Positions 15,931 through 31,577 of a stretch of 32,426 nucleotides of DNA are shown here, piece after piece. Location of the stretch: positions 1 through 32,426 of the forward strand of contig DYQJ01000006.1 in assembly GCA_020719345.1 (NCBI GenBank), given 5' to 3'. The translations under genes were made by a program, and so were the position numbers. This DNA is from Draconibacterium orientale (lineage in GTDB: Bacteria > Bacteroidota > Bacteroidia > Bacteroidales > DYQJ01). Under the pieces are notes generated by a model. That model made no database searches, was not told the origin of the DNA, and saw nothing but the letters and a program-made list of their open reading frames with translations. Numbering within the stretch: position 1 is the stretch's first letter; each line of letters begins with the position of its first letter.

Positions 15931-16879
15931 TCAAATATAGTATTAAATTTTTTTTTGCTTTATAATAATAAATCGGTATCATAACAAATATTATCGGGAG
16001 GAAGAAAAAAGTTATTGTCAATATAATTGTATTTGCTTGCAGCTCTGCATTGGGATAATACATGGCATATTTTAAAAGTATAGCGAATACAATAAATAGT
16101 AAACTTATAGCAAAAATAATAGTTACAATCATATAGTGCTGATAATTAAAGATTAAAAACATTAAAATTATCGGCAGTTGTATAAAAATAAAAATTATTA
16201 AGTTAGATTTTAATTTTTTGCTAATAAATATGTTCGGTGCGAGTTCGTTTATCTCAATAATATTTCGCGGTTCGCAAAGTATGTAAAAGGTTGAAAATAT
16301 TAATGTATTGATAATAAGAACAATCGGAGCCGTACCTATCCAAAATCCTAATGCGACAGCAATTATATTTAGCGGAATTATAAAATAGAAATTTTGTCTC
16401 AGTCCGCTTTTTATTTCAAAACAGTCATTCGGTATAATTTTCAATATTTTATTGTTTATATTTTCTTTTCTTTTCTTAATAGAGATATTAATAAAAGGAA
16501 TTATTGCAGTTCCTAATATAAGATAACCTGTTAAAATATAGTTCTTTAGAATTATTAGCTGTACCAGAAATGGCAGTAAAAGGATTAAATACTCGGACAG
16601 ATAAATAAGTTGTGGTTTATCAGTAATAATATTTATAAAAGTCTTATCTTTTCTTCGGATATGAATAAAAAATATTGTCGCTATTATGAATATAATTGTT
16701 ATAACAGCACTACGAGTTTGTTGTAACTGCTTGAAAATAAACGCCAATAGCAGAATAGTTATAATAAGAAGTATGATAATTCTAAATATTCCGATGCTTG
16801 CTATATTTCGGTATGTCTGCTTAATACGTATTGATAAAATTTTAGCTATCATTTTAAATATAAATTTCTTTTTCCACAA
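15917..16879 (-). CDS. Membrane protein, probable ABC transporter permease partner
   Basis: Hydrophobic 320-aa protein overlapping the ABC ATPase start by 14 nt. Confidence 0.65.
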   Translation of the reverse strand: MWKKKFIFKMIAKILSIRIKQTYRNIASIGIFRIIILLIITILLLAFIFKQLQQTRSAVITIIFIIATIFFIHIRRKDKTFINIITDKPQLIYLSEYLILLLPFLVQLIILKNYILTGYLILGTAIIPFINISIKKRKENINNKILKIIPNDCFEIKSGLRQNFYFIIPLNIIAVALGFWIGTAPIVLIINTLIFSTFYILCEPRNIIEINELAPNIFISKKLKSNLIIFIFIQLPIILMFLIFNYQHYMIVTIIFAISLLFIVFAILLKYAMYYPNAELQANTIILTITFFFLPIIFVMIPIYYYKAKKNLILYLNDYN

Positions 16880-18227
16880 AAAATAAGAATAGCGAAACTA
16901 CCAACAAATCAGCCGAACCTCCGGGCGAGATGTTATATTTTTCACAAAATTTTATTAATTCGCTGTATTCTATCTTATTATCAATTACTTGACGGGCTAA
17001 TAATTTTAGTTGTTCCAGCGTTTCTATGCCTTTGCGATAGACGATATTAGAGTCGTTATTATGTGCAATTATAGTTAATAATGTTTTTTCTAAAGCATAA
17101 GATATTTTCTGTTTATCATTAAAAAAATCTTTATCAAAAATGTGTCGGAGTGTTTTGATGCTATAATTAAATACCGTCGGCATCCCTTGTTCTACCTCTG
17201 CTCGTATGCCTGAGAAGCCATATAAAAGAAAACATAATTCGCCGTTGGTTTTTTTTGCGGTGTCAGATTTGTTATTTAATTCGTTATTAACTATATCTTT
17301 ACAGATGAGTTTTACTGTTTCAACAAATTTTTCTTCTGAAAAAGTTTGATATTTAGACAATATATATGCTACAGAAAAAACTGATATTCCGAGCAGGAAG
17401 ATGAGTCCTTTTTGAGTGTTTACATTATTGGTTGTCTTGAACATTTCTTGTTCCATTTGTATTCCTATTTCACGAATCAAAGCGAGTACATTTGTAAATT
17501 CTGCCTCATAATCATATCCTAATTCTGCAAAATTTCTAATAAACGGGGCAAGCGTAGCGGTAGAATTAATAAACATGTAATAGTTCATATCCGAGTGCGA
17601 ACCATCATTAAAAAAATCTACCAATCCTGGCTTAGGGGAGAATGACACCTCGTAAATCATTGATTTAATGGCAAATTCAACTAATTTATTAATAATATTG
17701 TTCTTTTTTTGTTTGTACAAATAATTTCGTATTTCTGTAAAAATATTGTCTCGCAGTTCCGAATAAGTATGTTTTCGCTCTCGCATACAGATAATAGCTG
17801 CTTCATTTTGACAGATAAAACATTTTTTCAGTTTTCCGGAGCTAATGTTCTCTGCTTTTTCATTACATACATCTAAGTCAATAACTCGTCCTATATAATG
17901 TTTGTTTTCAAAGAGTTCACAAATTCTTTTTATTTCGTGGGCGCTATAAAAATCTTTTCGCAAAGTCCAGAGAACATAATTGCCTGCCAAAATATCATTA
18001 CAATCTATTTCTTGTACAATATTTATGCGATTGGCGGCGAGCCATATTTTTATCTCGCTTTTTATTGTCTCAAAAAAGATGTCTATTAGTTCATCTTTTT
18101 TTGGAATACCCGGAATATTTAAGCTAAAACTAATAATTATTTTATTTTCGGAAGCTAATTTTTTCTTTATTAGCATTCTTTGTTCTCTCTGAATTAAAAT
18201 ATTGTCTAATAATATGTTCTCCATCAT
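16854..18227 (-). CDS. citXG: CitX-CitG fusion (citrate lyase holo-ACP synthase / triphosphoribosyl-dephospho-CoA synthase)
   Basis: N-terminal CitX-like region (REQRMLIKKKLASENKIIISFSLNIPGIPK...GRVIDLDV...KKCFICQNEAAIICMRERKHTYSEL), C-terminal CitG motif VSFSPKPGLVDFFNDGSHSDMNYYMFINS. Confidence 0.85.
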   Translation of the reverse strand: MMENILLDNILIQREQRMLIKKKLASENKIIISFSLNIPGIPKKDELIDIFFETIKSEIKIWLAANRINIVQEIDCNDILAGNYVLWTLRKDFYSAHEIKRICELFENKHYIGRVIDLDVCNEKAENISSGKLKKCFICQNEAAIICMRERKHTYSELRDNIFTEIRNYLYKQKKNNIINKLVEFAIKSMIYEVSFSPKPGLVDFFNDGSHSDMNYYMFINSTATLAPFIRNFAELGYDYEAEFTNVLALIREIGIQMEQEMFKTTNNVNTQKGLIFLLGISVFSVAYILSKYQTFSEEKFVETVKLICKDIVNNELNNKSDTAKKTNGELCFLLYGFSGIRAEVEQGMPTVFNYSIKTLRHIFDKDFFNDKQKISYALEKTLLTIIAHNNDSNIVYRKGIETLEQLKLLARQVIDNKIEYSELIKFCEKYNISPGGSADLLVVSLFLFFVEKEIYI

Positions 18228-21922: not shown

Positions 21923-22037
21923 TAAAATTTAAAAAATAACTTCGGAATTTATAATTTACAACTACTTAATATTCAAGCAAAAGCCAATTTATAATTCTTA
22001 ATTTATAATTCTTAATTTATAATTTATAATTTACTTA
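21921..22037 (+). repeat. Dispersed about 100-bp repeat, copy B
   Basis: agtaaaatttaaaaaataacttcggaatttataatttacaactacttaatattcaagcaaaagccaatttataattcttaattt..., with extra ttcttaatttataa units. Confidence 0.93.
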
Positions 22038-24836
22038 ATTGCTATTTATTTCTATTTCAAATCCTATAACAAGAATATCATCTGTTTGTACGCTTTCGTC
22101 CTTCCACTGGGTTATTCTTTCATCAAAATATTTGCCTTGCTGCTTCATTTCTACTGCTTTTAAATCCAAAATCAATTTGCGTAAATTGTGCTTCATAAAT
22201 TTGCGTTTAGATTCGCCTCCAAACTGGTCTGTGTAACCGTCAGTGAATAGATAATATTTGTCGTGTGGCAGGATAGTAATTATATTGTTGGTAAAATTTT
22301 TCCTGTTTCTGCTTGCATGTATGCCTATCGGCATCTTATCTACTTTAAATTCAATGATTTCGTCTTCTCTAAGTAACCAGAGCGGATTGTAAGCACTTGC
22401 AAATTGCATCTCTTTGAGATTCTTGTTTATTATACAAATAACCATGTTCATACCGTCTTTGGAATCGGAGCTTATGTCGTTTTGATTTAATGATTCTATC
22501 ACATTATGAGAGAGTTTGTCCAAAATATTTGCAGCGTTGATATTAGAATTATTTAATCTGTTCAAATATAGGTCAGATATGTCCTCCAAAAAAGATATGC
22601 CGAGCATACTCATAAAAGCTCCCGGAACCCCATGTCCTGTGCAGTCGGCTACCGCAATTAACGAGTAATTAAGTATTTGCTTCGTCCAATAGAAGTCGCC
22701 GGAGACAATGTCCTTTGGTTTAAATAAAATAAAATACTGCTCTATCGCCATATTTTTATTAAATTTTAATAATGCTTCCTGAATTCTTTTGGCATATTCT
22801 ATGCTGTCGGTTATTTGTTTTGTTTGTTTAACTATCTCGTCTTTTTGTTTGATTAGCTCTTTGTTGATGACCATTATTTCACTTTGTTTCTGCTCTAACT
22901 CGTCAAAAGCTTGATTTAAAACTGTCGTCGTTGTTTGCAATTCCTCCAATTTTTCATCCAGTTCAATGCTTTTAGGCATCAGCTCGTCTCTTTGTGCGAG
23001 CAGCTCTTCTTTTTGATTTAAAATTTCTTCGCGCTGATTAATAATTTCTTCGTGTGCGAGTTTTATCTCGGTGATATCACTGTCCACTGCGATAATCTTA
23101 ACTACCTTTTCATGTTCTATTATTGGGGTAATACAAGTTTGTGTCCACAGAGTCATACCATTTTTTGTGGTATGCTTATTTTCATAAGTAAAAGATTTCT
23201 GAGTTATTTTGCAATTTTTCAAGATATATCCTATCCTGTCATTATTGCTAAAATCAACTATATTTCGTCCATATTTTTTCACAAATTCTTCTTGTTCGTA
23301 TCCGTAAACTTCTTTGAGAGCTCGGTTAGTCCATTCTAAATTTCCACCTGCATCAAGAATAAAGACCACATTTTGTGTATTACTTGCTACAATAGACAGC
23401 TTTTCTAATTCTATATTTGTCTCATTAATAATCTCGTTCACGCTTTTGAGCTCTTCTAAGGTCTCGTATAATTCTACGGTGCGCTCTTTTACTCGTGCAT
23501 CAAGACTCTTATTAAGTTCTAATATTTCGTTATGCAAGTTTTCACTCTCTTTGGCGAGATAGAAATGACAATTCTCTGGACGATTGAGTCCATTGAAAAT
23601 AGCGACAGCCATCTGAGTACAGGAACCGTAGCCACATGCCGAACAATTATACATGTCTTTATCTGAAAATTTGTACATGGACTCATATATATTTAGCAGC
23701 TCTATCTCGTTGGGAGTTTGAATAGTATTGTTTGCGGAACGGTCAGTATAGTCGCGGTTATATATATTGTGATGCCAATATTTTTCTAAAAGTTGGTCTA
23801 TTGATTGTTTGTTATCTTCCTGATTTATTTTCTTATAATGCGCCTGCTGATTTATGTTTCGTTGATTTATCCAAAATTCTATTTCGTCTGGGGATTTTTC
23901 TACATTCAATGTAAGCGGTCCGGCATTGCAACCGTTTTCACAATTCAAACAGTCTATGAAAAGAGGCTGAAATCCACTTGATATTATCTCCGGTAATTTA
24001 TCAAGATATTTATAAATAGTATGTACGCCCTCTATTTTCCTTGAAATATGTCTAATATCCGGAACAATGCGCTCTATGGTACTGATTAATCCGCCGGGAG
24101 TAGAAAATAAAACAGCGCGCTCTGCCTCAGGATTTTCATAATACTCGTCTTGTAGAGAGTTCAAATCAATATTTTTATCTTTCAAATATTTGTCAATAGA
24201 TTGATAAGCGACATTAAAATCGCCATACCCGGTCTGTTCAAATTCTCGCTTTTTTGCGTTGCAAGGCGAGATAACAGCAACTTTAAAGTTCTTATATTGC
24301 GGATAAAACTCATCTATCATCTTTATAGTGTGCAACATCGGACTGTGACGAGGCACCAAATATTTAATCAATTCGGGACGGTAAATTTCTATATATGTAA
24401 CAATAGCCGGACATGCTTGCGAAATTGCTATCTTAGGTTTGACAGTAAATATGTACTCAAGATACGATTTAACAGTCAATTCGGCTCCGAAGCTAACATC
24501 TAAAACGGCTTTTATGCCCATAGATTTTAACCACGCATTAATTTTTAGGTATTGATTAGGAAAATTAGCCGCGATAGATGGGGCTACTACTGCTACAATA
24601 TCTTGATTCTCCTGCAATGATGCTATTAGACTATCAAAATCATCTATGAAACTACGCGCCGCGTGAGTGCAGGCACGTATGCAGCTCCCACACGCAAGAC
24701 ACATGTCTTCGTTTATGCTAACAGTTTCGCCACTGACATTGTTACAGTACTTAACCGGACAAATAGTAATACAAGCATGACAATTAACACATTTTTCTTT
24801 ATCTAAACTGATGACTTTTATTAAATTTATTGCCAT
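22035..24836 (-). CDS. Sensory [FeFe]-hydrogenase-like protein: 2x[4Fe-4S] - hydrogenase large-subunit-like domain - FeS domain - PAS - SpoIIE phosphatase
   Basis: CVNCHACITICPVKYC and CLACGSCIRACTHAAR ferredoxin motifs; H-cluster-region cysteines in SQACPAIVTYIE, ISPCNAKKREF, DCLNCENGCNAGP; FeS motif YNCSACGYGSCTQMA; PAS NVVFILDAGGNLEWTNRALKEVYGY; SpoIIE SGDFYWTKQ...VADCTGHGVPGAFMSMLG...LFTDGYTDQFGG. Confidence 0.92.
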   Translation of the reverse strand: MAINLIKVISLDKEKCVNCHACITICPVKYCNNVSGETVSINEDMCLACGSCIRACTHAARSFIDDFDSLIASLQENQDIVAVVAPSIAANFPNQYLKINAWLKSMGIKAVLDVSFGAELTVKSYLEYIFTVKPKIAISQACPAIVTYIEIYRPELIKYLVPRHSPMLHTIKMIDEFYPQYKNFKVAVISPCNAKKREFEQTGYGDFNVAYQSIDKYLKDKNIDLNSLQDEYYENPEAERAVLFSTPGGLISTIERIVPDIRHISRKIEGVHTIYKYLDKLPEIISSGFQPLFIDCLNCENGCNAGPLTLNVEKSPDEIEFWINQRNINQQAHYKKINQEDNKQSIDQLLEKYWHHNIYNRDYTDRSANNTIQTPNEIELLNIYESMYKFSDKDMYNCSACGYGSCTQMAVAIFNGLNRPENCHFYLAKESENLHNEILELNKSLDARVKERTVELYETLEELKSVNEIINETNIELEKLSIVASNTQNVVFILDAGGNLEWTNRALKEVYGYEQEEFVKKYGRNIVDFSNNDRIGYILKNCKITQKSFTYENKHTTKNGMTLWTQTCITPIIEHEKVVKIIAVDSDITEIKLAHEEIINQREEILNQKEELLAQRDELMPKSIELDEKLEELQTTTTVLNQAFDELEQKQSEIMVINKELIKQKDEIVKQTKQITDSIEYAKRIQEALLKFNKNMAIEQYFILFKPKDIVSGDFYWTKQILNYSLIAVADCTGHGVPGAFMSMLGISFLEDISDLYLNRLNNSNINAANILDKLSHNVIESLNQNDISSDSKDGMNMVICIINKNLKEMQFASAYNPLWLLREDEIIEFKVDKMPIGIHASRNRKNFTNNIITILPHDKYYLFTDGYTDQFGGESKRKFMKHNLRKLILDLKAVEMKQQGKYFDERITQWKDESVQTDDILVIGFEIEINSN

Positions 24837-24999: not shown

Positions 25000-26661
25000 A
25001 TGGAAAAGATTTTTTACCCTAAGTTTTTTAGTGTAATAAAAAAAGGCATTTCAAAAAAACAAATAGGGACAGATGTTTTATCCGGTGTGGTTGTCGGTAT
25101 TGTTGCGTTGCCACTTGCTATAGCTTTTGCTGTGGCAAGCGGAGTATCACCGGAGAAAGGATTAATAACAGCAGTAGTGGCAGGTTTTTTAATATCTTTT
25201 TTAGGAGGCAGCAGAGTGCAGATAGGAGGACCTACCGGAGCTTTTATCGTGATAGTTTATTCTATTGTAGAGAAATATGGTATTGACGGATTAATTATTT
25301 CTACTATATTAGCCGGTATTTTATTAGTTCTTTTCGGTGTCTTAAAATTGGGAAGCTTGCTAAAATTTTTCCCGCATCCACTGGTTGTAGGATTCACCAG
25401 CGGAATAGCGCTGGTCATTTTTTCCACACAAGTTAAAGATGCTCTTGGACTTGATATTGCTAAGGTGCCTTCCGAATTTGTTGATAAATGGGAATTATAT
25501 TTTCAAAGCATGAGCAGCTTCAATCCTATTGCATTGGCGTTGACTATTGCCACTATTTTAATCGTGTTATTTTCTAAACATTTGACTAATAAAGTTCCCG
25601 GCTCCTTTGTCGCAATAATAGTAATAACGGCAGCAGTTCAAATATTAGGTTTGAATGTTACTACGATAGAGACTTTCTTTCATGAAATACCGAGTGATAT
25701 AAATATTACTATTCCGAATATCAAAATAAGTGACCTCTCTCATTATTTGCAACCGGCAATCACTATCGCTTTGCTTGGCGGTATAGAATCGCTGTTGTCG
25801 GCGGTCGTAGCAGACGGGATGATAGGAAGCAATCATCGTTCTAATACGGAGCTGATAGCACAAGGAATAGCCAATATAATAACACCTTTTTTCGGTGGAA
25901 TCCCTGCAACAGGCGCAATAGCAAGAACAGCTACCAATATACGAAACGGAGGACGAACACCTATCTCTGGGATGGTACACGCCGTTACATTACTTTTGAT
26001 AATGTTGTTCTTTGGTAAATGGGCAAAACTTATCCCGATGTCGTGTCTGGCTGGTATATTGATAGTTGTAGCTTATAACATGAGTGAGTGGCGCTCTTTT
26101 ATTTCTATTTTTAAATCTTCATGGTTTGATATATTAATCTTGTTATCAACCTTGTTATTAACAGTTATAGTAGATTTGACCGTAGCAATCGAGGTAGGTA
26201 TAGTTTTATCTTCTTTGTTGTTTATGAAACGAATGTCAGATATAAATAAAGATATCCAACTCAATGTGGACTCCGATGTCTTAGAAGATTACTCTTCCAT
26301 TCCTCCATACATCAGTATTTATGAAATAAATGGTCCTTTATTTTTTGCCTCCGCCAAACAATATTGTGAGGTCTTAAAAAATAGCGGCTCAAAAAGTAAA
26401 ATAATGATCATTCGCATGCGAAATGTACCTTTTGTTGATAATACCGGAGTTCATAATTTTAAAGCAGCGTTAAAAATCTTGCAAAATGCTGATACAAAGA
26501 TTATTCTGTCCGGCGTAAATGATAAAGTAAGAACTGATTTAGATAAAAACCGAGTGAGCTTCCTCATCGGAAAAGCAAATATTTTCAATAATTTTGATGA
26601 AGCTTTGCGACATGCAAAAAAAATAGTAGAGAAAACGGCAGTCTATTCAGTGGAAGAATAA
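25000..26661 (+). CDS. SulP family inorganic anion transporter with C-terminal STAS domain
   Basis: DVLSGVVVGIVALPLAIAFAVASGVSPEKGLITAVVAGFL, GGPTGAFIVIVY, HPLVVGFTSGIALVIF, STAS MRNVPFVDNTGVHNF. Confidence 0.96.
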   Translation: MEKIFYPKFFSVIKKGISKKQIGTDVLSGVVVGIVALPLAIAFAVASGVSPEKGLITAVVAGFLISFLGGSRVQIGGPTGAFIVIVYSIVEKYGIDGLIISTILAGILLVLFGVLKLGSLLKFFPHPLVVGFTSGIALVIFSTQVKDALGLDIAKVPSEFVDKWELYFQSMSSFNPIALALTIATILIVLFSKHLTNKVPGSFVAIIVITAAVQILGLNVTTIETFFHEIPSDINITIPNIKISDLSHYLQPAITIALLGGIESLLSAVVADGMIGSNHRSNTELIAQGIANIITPFFGGIPATGAIARTATNIRNGGRTPISGMVHAVTLLLIMLFFGKWAKLIPMSCLAGILIVVAYNMSEWRSFISIFKSSWFDILILLSTLLLTVIVDLTVAIEVGIVLSSLLFMKRMSDINKDIQLNVDSDVLEDYSSIPPYISIYEINGPLFFASAKQYCEVLKNSGSKSKIMIIRMRNVPFVDNTGVHNFKAALKILQNADTKIILSGVNDKVRTDLDKNRVSFLIGKANIFNNFDEALRHAKKIVEKTAVYSVEE

Positions 26662-28973: not shown

Positions 28974-31577
28974 ATGAATCAATTAATATTTAAAGTTTTA
29001 AAGCAAAGCCATAAGTTAGAAGAATATGATGATTCTACTTTGTTTGCCGATAAATATGATTTCCTAAAAAATCATTTTTTTAACGAAGCCAATTTCACTA
29101 ACGTGCCGAAAAACTTTGATTATCACAAATTTAAAAAAGACTTTGAACATTGGCTAACTACTACCAAAAAATTAAATCAGGAAACTTCTATATTAGAAGA
29201 TATTGATTTGATTAAATATCACGACACAAGCGCTATCAAAAATAAATTCGGAATAGGAGGAAGCTTTTATATCTTTTTTTATACTTTTCAAGATGTTTTA
29301 TTGTATAAAATACAAAGCTCGCAATGGTTAGATGAATTTAGCGTCAAACAAAGTAAATTTAATTTCGCTAAATTAGTGCAAAACGACTATAAAACAGAAA
29401 TTTATCAATTTATAGAAAAATATATTACAGATAAATATTTTGCAGAAGAAGATTTAAAGAGATATATAGAAAATAATTGCTACGTGGAAAATTTTTCGCA
29501 GCACCAAAAAAACTGGTTCTTTTGCAATAAACAACAAGACGAATATTTGCTTGCCGCTTTGGAAATCTCGCAAATGAGAAAAGCACCAATAGATTTTGGG
29601 GAGCAGATAACATGGAAATATATTTTGACAACGCATCACTCCTCGCTTATCGCTTTAAATACAGAAAACGAAATAGAAGATATTTTTGAAATATCTAATA
29701 AAGAGATGACCGTTAAAACCGAAATAGGTAAAGACCCCGTCAGCGTTGGAGAATATCAATGGCTCTGCTCACGACAAAACGAGAAAAAATATCATGACAT
29801 AAAAAACTGCGTCCCCATAGAAAAATACAGCCGACTCTACGAAATAGCACGACTCAACTGGTTAACTAAAATAAAAAACAATCAACTTTTTGCTAATGAC
29901 ATATTTAATTTCTTAACCGCAACACGTCAAGACCCTATTGACGAGTTTACGCTGTTTTTTATTAACATAGAAAATATTAACAATAAAGATATTATTAATA
30001 AGTTTGCCGAAGAAGATAGACTCATTAATATTATAAAAAAAATATTGAAGAACCAAGAAAGTGCCTCCGCCTTGATTAGCTGGTACGAAAAATGGCATTT
30101 CTCTTTAGTTACTACCGTAGCACTTATATACATACTCACCAGAGTCCCAGAAGATACAAACGACTTTAGCAAAATTCTCCCTTTTCACCGCAAAATACGG
30201 GAACTTTTTTATAAAGAAGAAAAAGATAAAATAAACAAAATTATCTTTGACATCAACTTCTGTAAACATTTGATTAAGTGTAATGAAAATAAAGAAGCGA
30301 TAATTCTATTAGAAGACCATCTGAAAAATCTGCCGGATGAAACTTTGTTAGACCTATTGCCGGCTCACAACTTAGACATTACAAGCACTGCAAGCGGACA
30401 AACGTTAAAAATAAAAATTCTTGATATGCTCGTACTCGCTAACGAGAAAGATAAATCAGTAATCAATTCGTTGCAACTCGCAATGTTACAGCCACTGGTA
30501 CGACAACGTCTGGAGCAGCTAATAACCAATTCTTCTGACAATCTAAAAATGCGAGCCGAAGAAATTAAACATCTCTTAGAAATTGGCGGACTGCTGTCAG
30601 AAGAAGATATTTATACAGATGAAATATATAACTCGCTAAAAAGAAAAGACATAGAAGACCGTCTGCGACACCCAGCGATGAGAAATGCCTCCACGCTAAA
30701 TAATTTTCAAACATGGATAGCAACAGTTAAAATTCCAGACTATTCTATTATTAAATCTTATGCCGAGCCACTGAATATTAAAAATTATCCTGAACTCAAT
30801 AATATTATCTCGGATATTAAAATTGCTTTAGAATTAGAAAAAGTAGAGCCATTCATCTCGCGAGGAGATAAATCCGTAGGAATAACAAGCTTTGAAGCCG
30901 AAATACCGTTTATTATCATCGGAGGAGAGCATTTGAATAAAGACTCGCAATATCATCTTACTTCTAACGAGTTCAAATTTGCGCTGGGATTAGAGTTAGC
31001 ACATCTTTTTTTCAAGCACTCCCGCATAACTGCAAATGATGTGTGGAGAGGAGCAATGGACAAAAGTATTTTCTTAGTAGATGCATTACTTTCTATTTTA
31101 CCCGTAGTCGGAATATTAGGGAAATCGTTTAGCTATTTTGAAAAACTAAGCTCCTTTGCAGGATTCTTACAAAAAACGGAAAAGATAACGAATATTACTT
31201 CTAAAAGTCAAGTCATTTTAAATAGTACCGGACAAGCAGTTAATTTGTACCAAAAAATATCAAAGAAAGAAACCGAGATGGCGCGTGAACAAGAGATGCT
31301 TGCCATCTCAAGACTAATGCAATTAACCGCAGACCGAGCAGGACTACTTTTTTGTGGAAATATTAAAGCTGCAGTACGCTCCATGTTCTTAGTATCCAGA
31401 AATTATGCCTCTGAACTCCACGTAATAGAGAAATACGGATTAGAGAAATTCATCTTAAAACAAGATGAAACCGGAAATTTCGTAAATCAAGAGTTTTCAC
31501 TCAGAATAGCGAATCTCTTTTCATTCTATTTATCAGACGATTACGTGACGCTAAAAAATGAAATAAAAATGAAATAA
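28974..31577 (+). CDS. Large conserved hypothetical protein with C-terminal M48-like region (degenerate HExxH)
   Basis: FKFALGLELAHLFFKHSRITANDVWRG resembles HELAHxxxxHSR regions but first His is Leu; DRAGLLFCGN downstream. Confidence 0.6.
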   Translation: MNQLIFKVLKQSHKLEEYDDSTLFADKYDFLKNHFFNEANFTNVPKNFDYHKFKKDFEHWLTTTKKLNQETSILEDIDLIKYHDTSAIKNKFGIGGSFYIFFYTFQDVLLYKIQSSQWLDEFSVKQSKFNFAKLVQNDYKTEIYQFIEKYITDKYFAEEDLKRYIENNCYVENFSQHQKNWFFCNKQQDEYLLAALEISQMRKAPIDFGEQITWKYILTTHHSSLIALNTENEIEDIFEISNKEMTVKTEIGKDPVSVGEYQWLCSRQNEKKYHDIKNCVPIEKYSRLYEIARLNWLTKIKNNQLFANDIFNFLTATRQDPIDEFTLFFINIENINNKDIINKFAEEDRLINIIKKILKNQESASALISWYEKWHFSLVTTVALIYILTRVPEDTNDFSKILPFHRKIRELFYKEEKDKINKIIFDINFCKHLIKCNENKEAIILLEDHLKNLPDETLLDLLPAHNLDITSTASGQTLKIKILDMLVLANEKDKSVINSLQLAMLQPLVRQRLEQLITNSSDNLKMRAEEIKHLLEIGGLLSEEDIYTDEIYNSLKRKDIEDRLRHPAMRNASTLNNFQTWIATVKIPDYSIIKSYAEPLNIKNYPELNNIISDIKIALELEKVEPFISRGDKSVGITSFEAEIPFIIIGGEHLNKDSQYHLTSNEFKFALGLELAHLFFKHSRITANDVWRGAMDKSIFLVDALLSILPVVGILGKSFSYFEKLSSFAGFLQKTEKITNITSKSQVILNSTGQAVNLYQKISKKETEMAREQEMLAISRLMQLTADRAGLLFCGNIKAAVRSMFLVSRNYASELHVIEKYGLEKFILKQDETGNFVNQEFSLRIANLFSFYLSDDYVTLKNEIKMK

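Follow-up and report, generated by a model that had tools for sequence, protein, structure and literature searches.

The gene on the minus strand at 22035..24836 encodes a single polypeptide in which an [FeFe]-hydrogenase-like sensor is joined to a PP2C phosphatase, and this fusion protein probably lets the cell switch a protein in direct response to a hydrogen (or redox) signal. The reading that best accounts for the data, and which we favour with somewhat better than even confidence, is that of an H2 or redox sensor controlling the dephosphorylation of a SiaC-like protein. The ORF starts with ATG and lies in a stretch of DNA of 32,426 nucleotides, analysed as a whole and referred to below as the window. 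Its features are as follows.

22035..24836, minus strand: whole gene, sensory [FeFe]-hydrogenase-like/PP2C phosphatase fusion, 933 aa (ORF, Pfam, NCBIfam)
24657..24809, minus strand: two N-terminal 4Fe-4S sites, residues 10-60 (Pfam Fer4_10), with ligands C16, C19, C22, C26 and C46, C49, C52, C56 (invariant in 40 relatives)
23916..24602, minus strand: [FeFe]-hydrogenase H-domain, residues 79-307 (PF02906, 3.9e-31, and predicted fold match to [FeFe]-hydrogenases)
24396..24422, minus strand: L1 motif SQACPAIVT, residues 139-147, putative H-cluster ligand C142 (alignments)
24243..24272, minus strand: L2 motif ISPCNAKKRE, residues 189-198, putative H-cluster ligand C192, conserved K195 (alignments)
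23919..23954, minus strand: L3 motif DCLNCENGCNAG, residues 295-306, putative ligands C299 and C303, clade-specific extra C296 (alignments)
23565..23651, minus strand: C-terminal FeS site Cx2Cx4Cx16C, C398, C401, C406 and C423 (PF04060; invariant)
23448..23567, minus strand: predicted helix/coiled coil joining sensor to PAS, residues 424-463 (AlphaFold secondary structure)
23067..23366, minus strand: PAS domain, residues 491-590 (PF13426, 1.4e-10)
22773..23075, minus strand: predicted continuous 101-residue helix linking PAS to phosphatase, residues 588-688 (AlphaFold)
22050..22766, minus strand: SiaA/SpoIIE-type PP2C phosphatase, residues 691-929 (PF07228, NF038263, predicted fold match to 6k4e)

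The original prediction had proposed that one 933-aa ORF joins ferredoxin-type motifs, an H-domain, an extra FeS domain, coiled coils, a PAS domain and a complete phosphatase. Pfam, NCBIfam and AlphaFold confirmed this order and added the minus-strand orientation; all four families suggested for the search (Fe_hyd_lg_C, FeS, PAS and SpoIIE) were matched. Pfam placed Fer4_10 at residues 10-56, Fe_hyd_lg_C at 79-307 (109 bits against a cut-off of 22.1), the FeS family PF04060 at 396-424, PAS_9 downstream of the FeS site, and SpoIIE at 726-927 (3.4e-15), and it detected no MCP domain in the protein. A SiaA-like C-terminus was recognised by NCBIfam at residues 640-929 (1.7e-47). In residue alignments, the acidic motifs of the phosphatase, with the aspartates that bind metal in SiaA/SpoIIE enzymes, correspond to D713, D730, D865 and D918/D919, and a conserved SIEYAKRIQ helix forms the end of the 101-residue linker. 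The predicted folds are of hydrogenase type and of PP2C type. The AlphaFold model of sensor residues 1-460 (40 sequences) had a pLDDT of 93 and a pTM of 0.89, and its best PDB matches were [FeFe]-hydrogenases, with TM scores of about 0.6-0.65. The full-length model (pLDDT 80) had a pTM of 0.50, and the relative placement of its domains is therefore not reliable; its C-terminus resembled the SiaA PP2C structure 6k4e with a target TM score of 0.86.

Four cysteines, C142, C192, C299 and C303, align with the four H-cluster ligands of group A enzymes. They lie in the motifs QACPAIV (L1), SPCNAKKRE (L2) and DCLNCENGC (L3), while the C-terminal FeS site consists of CSACGYGSC plus C423. All 16 ligand cysteines (four of the H-cluster, 12 of FeS sites) were invariant in 40 aligned sequences, and in a wider count each H-cluster ligand was kept in 45 of 45 clade sequences. 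We strongly infer that the H-domain carries an H-cluster. The surroundings of the putative cluster are altered. At the position of the group A proton-transfer cysteine the window protein has A141 (Pro in most of the clade), and the EExxE segment is deleted. Ser and Leu replace CpI Met353 and Met497 (numbering from PMC8163306; equivalent positions assigned from the present alignment), as reported for TamHydS (PMC8163306). Together with the Cx2Cx4Cx16C motif, described for groups C and D (PMC8163306), and the downstream PAS domain, these features bear out the claimed likeness to sensory group C enzymes. Q140 and C296 are specific to the clade. The L3 spacing, C-x3-C in both group A and the window clade, differs from that of H-domain/histidine-kinase sensors (L008:7903-9894, minus strand, and relatives), in which L3 is one residue shorter and reads C-E-G-C.

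The altered second sphere and the lost proton path would also fit a general FeS redox sensor, in which the domain carries 4Fe-4S clusters but at no time the 2Fe subsite, and the phosphatase is informed of redox potential or O2; several Fe-S sites of the protein would respond to redox. We consider this unlikely, since the four H-cluster ligands are invariant in 40 aligned relatives and HydG is encoded in the genome of the window and in most other genomes with the fusion. The genome of the window (3.81 Mb, 95% complete) encodes HydG (508 bits), HydE (344 bits) and HydF (493 bits) and a HydABC-type gene set (a 2Fe-2S thioredoxin-like protein, a NuoF-like protein and a 594-aa HydA). A second sensor with an H-domain, this one fused to a histidine kinase, is also encoded. 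As the original prediction had noted, no hydrogenase or maturase genes were recognised elsewhere in the window, and neither siaBC nor hyd genes stand alongside the fusion gene itself. An FeS redox sensor had been expected to go with the absence of hydEFG and of any HydA from the genome and loss of the bridging cysteine; maturases, HydA and cysteines are all present. Other genes of the window include a CitX-CitG fusion gene (16854-18227, minus strand), near which no citrate lyase genes were recognised in the window, two TerD-family genes side by side (221-1357) and an 867-aa ORF (28974-31577) with neither a Pfam match above cut-off nor an NCBIfam match.

HydG was also found in 13 of 14 other genomes that carry the fusion. 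It was not detected in G405, a 91% complete genome with two strong HydA genes, where a missing contig is the likely reason. In another genome (G678, 98% complete), the fusion was the sole PF02906 match at E values up to 1e-15, and a divergent hydE-hydF-hydG operon adjoins it (L158). The sensor is thus the only visible client of these maturases, which further argues against a protein that binds 4Fe-4S clusters only, although a catalytic HydA may merely be absent from the G678 assembly. Maturase genes also accompany kinase-fused homologues. In Bacteroidetes GWF2_35_48, a histidine kinase is part of the same chain as the homologous core, REC and REC-SpoIIE genes come next, and the whole set sits between hydE-hydF and hydG (L155). 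In G161, hydG and a kinase-fused homologue belong to one gene run, with two REC/kinase genes between them. At a further locus (L009:7667-9221), a TM1266-like gene and a LuxR/NarL-type response regulator gene lie downstream of hydG.

Genome searches and ORF analysis yielded 15 complete fusions of H-domain, FeS site and PP2C in one chain, distributed over 14 other genomes from 10 families, mostly of the window's order; a sixteenth runs off a contig edge. A fusion unique to the window's genome, and a chimera or chance fusion in this metagenome-assembled genome, were thereby rejected: the architecture recurs in 15 ORFs and the 16 ligand cysteines are invariant, so the joining of sensor and phosphatase is not due to chance. 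In one genome (G562, L167:4785-8258), an internal TAA interrupts an H-sensor ORF, and a PAS-PAS-SpoIIE ORF comes within a few bases of its end; the pair may represent a fusion that has been broken or split. Among the sequences collected, the related core is joined to MCP domains in 21 (the tree includes 20 of these) and to histidine kinases in two. The tree, of 86 sequences, placed the window protein in a clade of 44 (96/95), within which PP2C and MCP forms clustered, separate from the histidine-kinase-linked group, the clostridial PAS sensors and groups A/B. Its sensor core is thus nearest to those of chemoreceptor-linked proteins (HydDB C2-like), and not to the clostridial PAS sensors whose SpoIIE phosphatase is a separate gene (C3-like); these subgroup names are provisional because the tree was built without HydDB reference sequences. 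The PP2C domains of the fusions were scattered among resident phosphatases in a quick, weakly supported tree, which does not favour a single origin of the phosphatase part. The closest match to the window PP2C domain was a paralogue from its own genome (52% identity).

Evidence for the substrate came from the gene neighbourhood of another fusion. In G888, siaB (158 bits, cut-off 85), siaC, an ion-channel-like gene and the fusion form one gene run with gaps of 5-30 bases (L178), and the phosphosite residue of this SiaC is Ser. Since siaB and siaC share an operon with the fusion, SiaC phosphoproteins are the likely substrate class, and we have moderate confidence that a SiaC-like protein is the substrate of the window phosphatase. 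The window's genome encodes 19 SiaC proteins, several of them adjoined by SiaB-family (DUF6272) genes, and most of those inspected contain a site resembling the SiaC T68 peptide LLYLNTSSIK. The same genome has 65 SpoIIE phosphatase domains, and with so many candidates on both sides the assignment of partners is uncertain. Genome-wide (G000), the SpoIIE-type domains and SiaC-family phosphoproteins make up a large Ser/Thr partner-switching network.

The phosphatase might instead act on a STAS anti-anti-sigma protein, or on the STAS domain (Pfam) of the SulP transporter encoded by the divergent neighbouring gene (25000-26661), a view that departs from SiaC dephosphorylation only at the last step. 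The genome does contain STAS proteins, one of them encoded beside a HATPase_c_2 gene, but no SulP homologue was found alongside other fusions, the phosphatase is SiaA-like and the G888 fusion is accompanied by a siaB-siaC pair. We therefore regard a STAS substrate as improbable. As a conserved partner, SulP was rejected: comparison of 17 loci revealed no conserved neighbours of the fusions.

We propose that HydE, HydF and HydG of the genome would equip the H-domain with a complete H-cluster. The conformation of the H-domain would then change when H2 is bound or slowly turned over or, less specifically, with the redox poise of the clusters. That H2 is the signal is held with moderate confidence. 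In TamHydS, H2 does not reduce the C-terminal cluster (PMC13104023); an electron relay is therefore unsupported, and conformational coupling alone is assumed. The change would travel through the C-terminal FeS domain, the coiled coil, the PAS domain and the 101-residue helix to paired PP2C domains and set their activity, in either direction. Control of PP2C activity through a coiled-coil linker has been reported for RsbU and suggested to extend to many PP2C phosphatases (PMC12143880). The phosphatase would strip phosphate off Ser/Thr of a SiaC-family protein, a SiaB-family kinase would oppose it, and dephosphorylation would free or capture the effector of SiaC.

The H-domain could also be vestigial or structural, with the PAS domain sensing the real ligand. 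PAS domains are common sensors, and their copy number varies among the fusions. This variability also speaks against them as the true sensor, as does the G888 fusion, in which no PAS domain was detectable, whereas the conserved part of the relatives is the H-domain with its cysteines; we consider a sensing PAS domain very unlikely. Least probable of all is that the H-cluster senses CO, or has slow hydrogenase activity with a product that is no signal, the phosphatase being regulated independently: H-clusters bind CO and turnover in sensory enzymes is low (PMC11376134), but CO tolerance is reported to be unusually high in group C/D enzymes (PMC8163306), and the fusion of the related core to outputs of the MCP, kinase and PP2C types implies signalling.

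Sensory [FeFe] hydrogenases were proposed more than a decade ago, and in the open-licence literature searched, their sensing role is without direct proof or a known signalling mechanism. With sensor and enzymatic output in one polypeptide, H2 sensing could be read in vitro as phosphatase activity, and where the maturases seem to serve the sensor alone, the genome offers a clean genetic test. More tentatively, and with confidence falling somewhat short of even, we suggest a complete pathway from H2 to Ser/Thr phosphorylation, in which H-cluster sensor-phosphatases would drive SiaB/SiaC switches throughout the window's order of Bacteroidota, and some genomes would keep hydEFG solely for sensor maturation.

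Phosphatase-linked sensory hydrogenases have been proposed before. HydDB lists a phosphatase-linked group, C3, and a chemotactic group, C2, both putative (PMC5037454), and a Ruminococcus albus sensor with a phosphatase subunit has been proposed to sense H2 (PMC6776011); the window protein likewise ties an H-domain sensor to a Ser/Thr phosphatase. At a clostridial locus (L022), SpoIIE is encoded by a separate gene beside the H-domain hydrogenase gene and the sensor belongs to another clade (C3-like, in the tree without HydDB references), whereas the window phosphatase is SiaA-type and part of the same chain. The most similar sensor cores (about 50-60% identity), which form one well-supported clade with the window protein, in many cases carry MCP domains and are HydDB C2-like, while the window output is PP2C. 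The missing proton-transfer Cys, the C-terminal FeS motif and the Ser/Leu second sphere are shared with group C/D sensory enzymes such as TamHydS; a phosphatase is not reported for chains of that type, and Q140 and C296 occur only in the window clade. The phosphatase has the acidic motifs and predicted PP2C fold of SiaA from the SiaABCD system of Pseudomonas aeruginosa (PMC7647112), a likeness extended by the association of the G888 fusion with siaB and siaC, but the H-domain sensor replaces the N-terminal part of SiaA. The order of sensor, long helical linker and PP2C domain recalls RsbU/RsbP-type phosphatases, for which the available text of PMC12143880 does not name hydrogenase-type sensors. 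We found no report of a same-chain sensory [FeFe] hydrogenase-phosphatase fusion in the open-licence literature. The present case stands apart by its single chain, by a SiaA-type phosphatase attached to a core that otherwise goes mostly with chemoreceptors, and by the linkages to siaBC and hydEFG.
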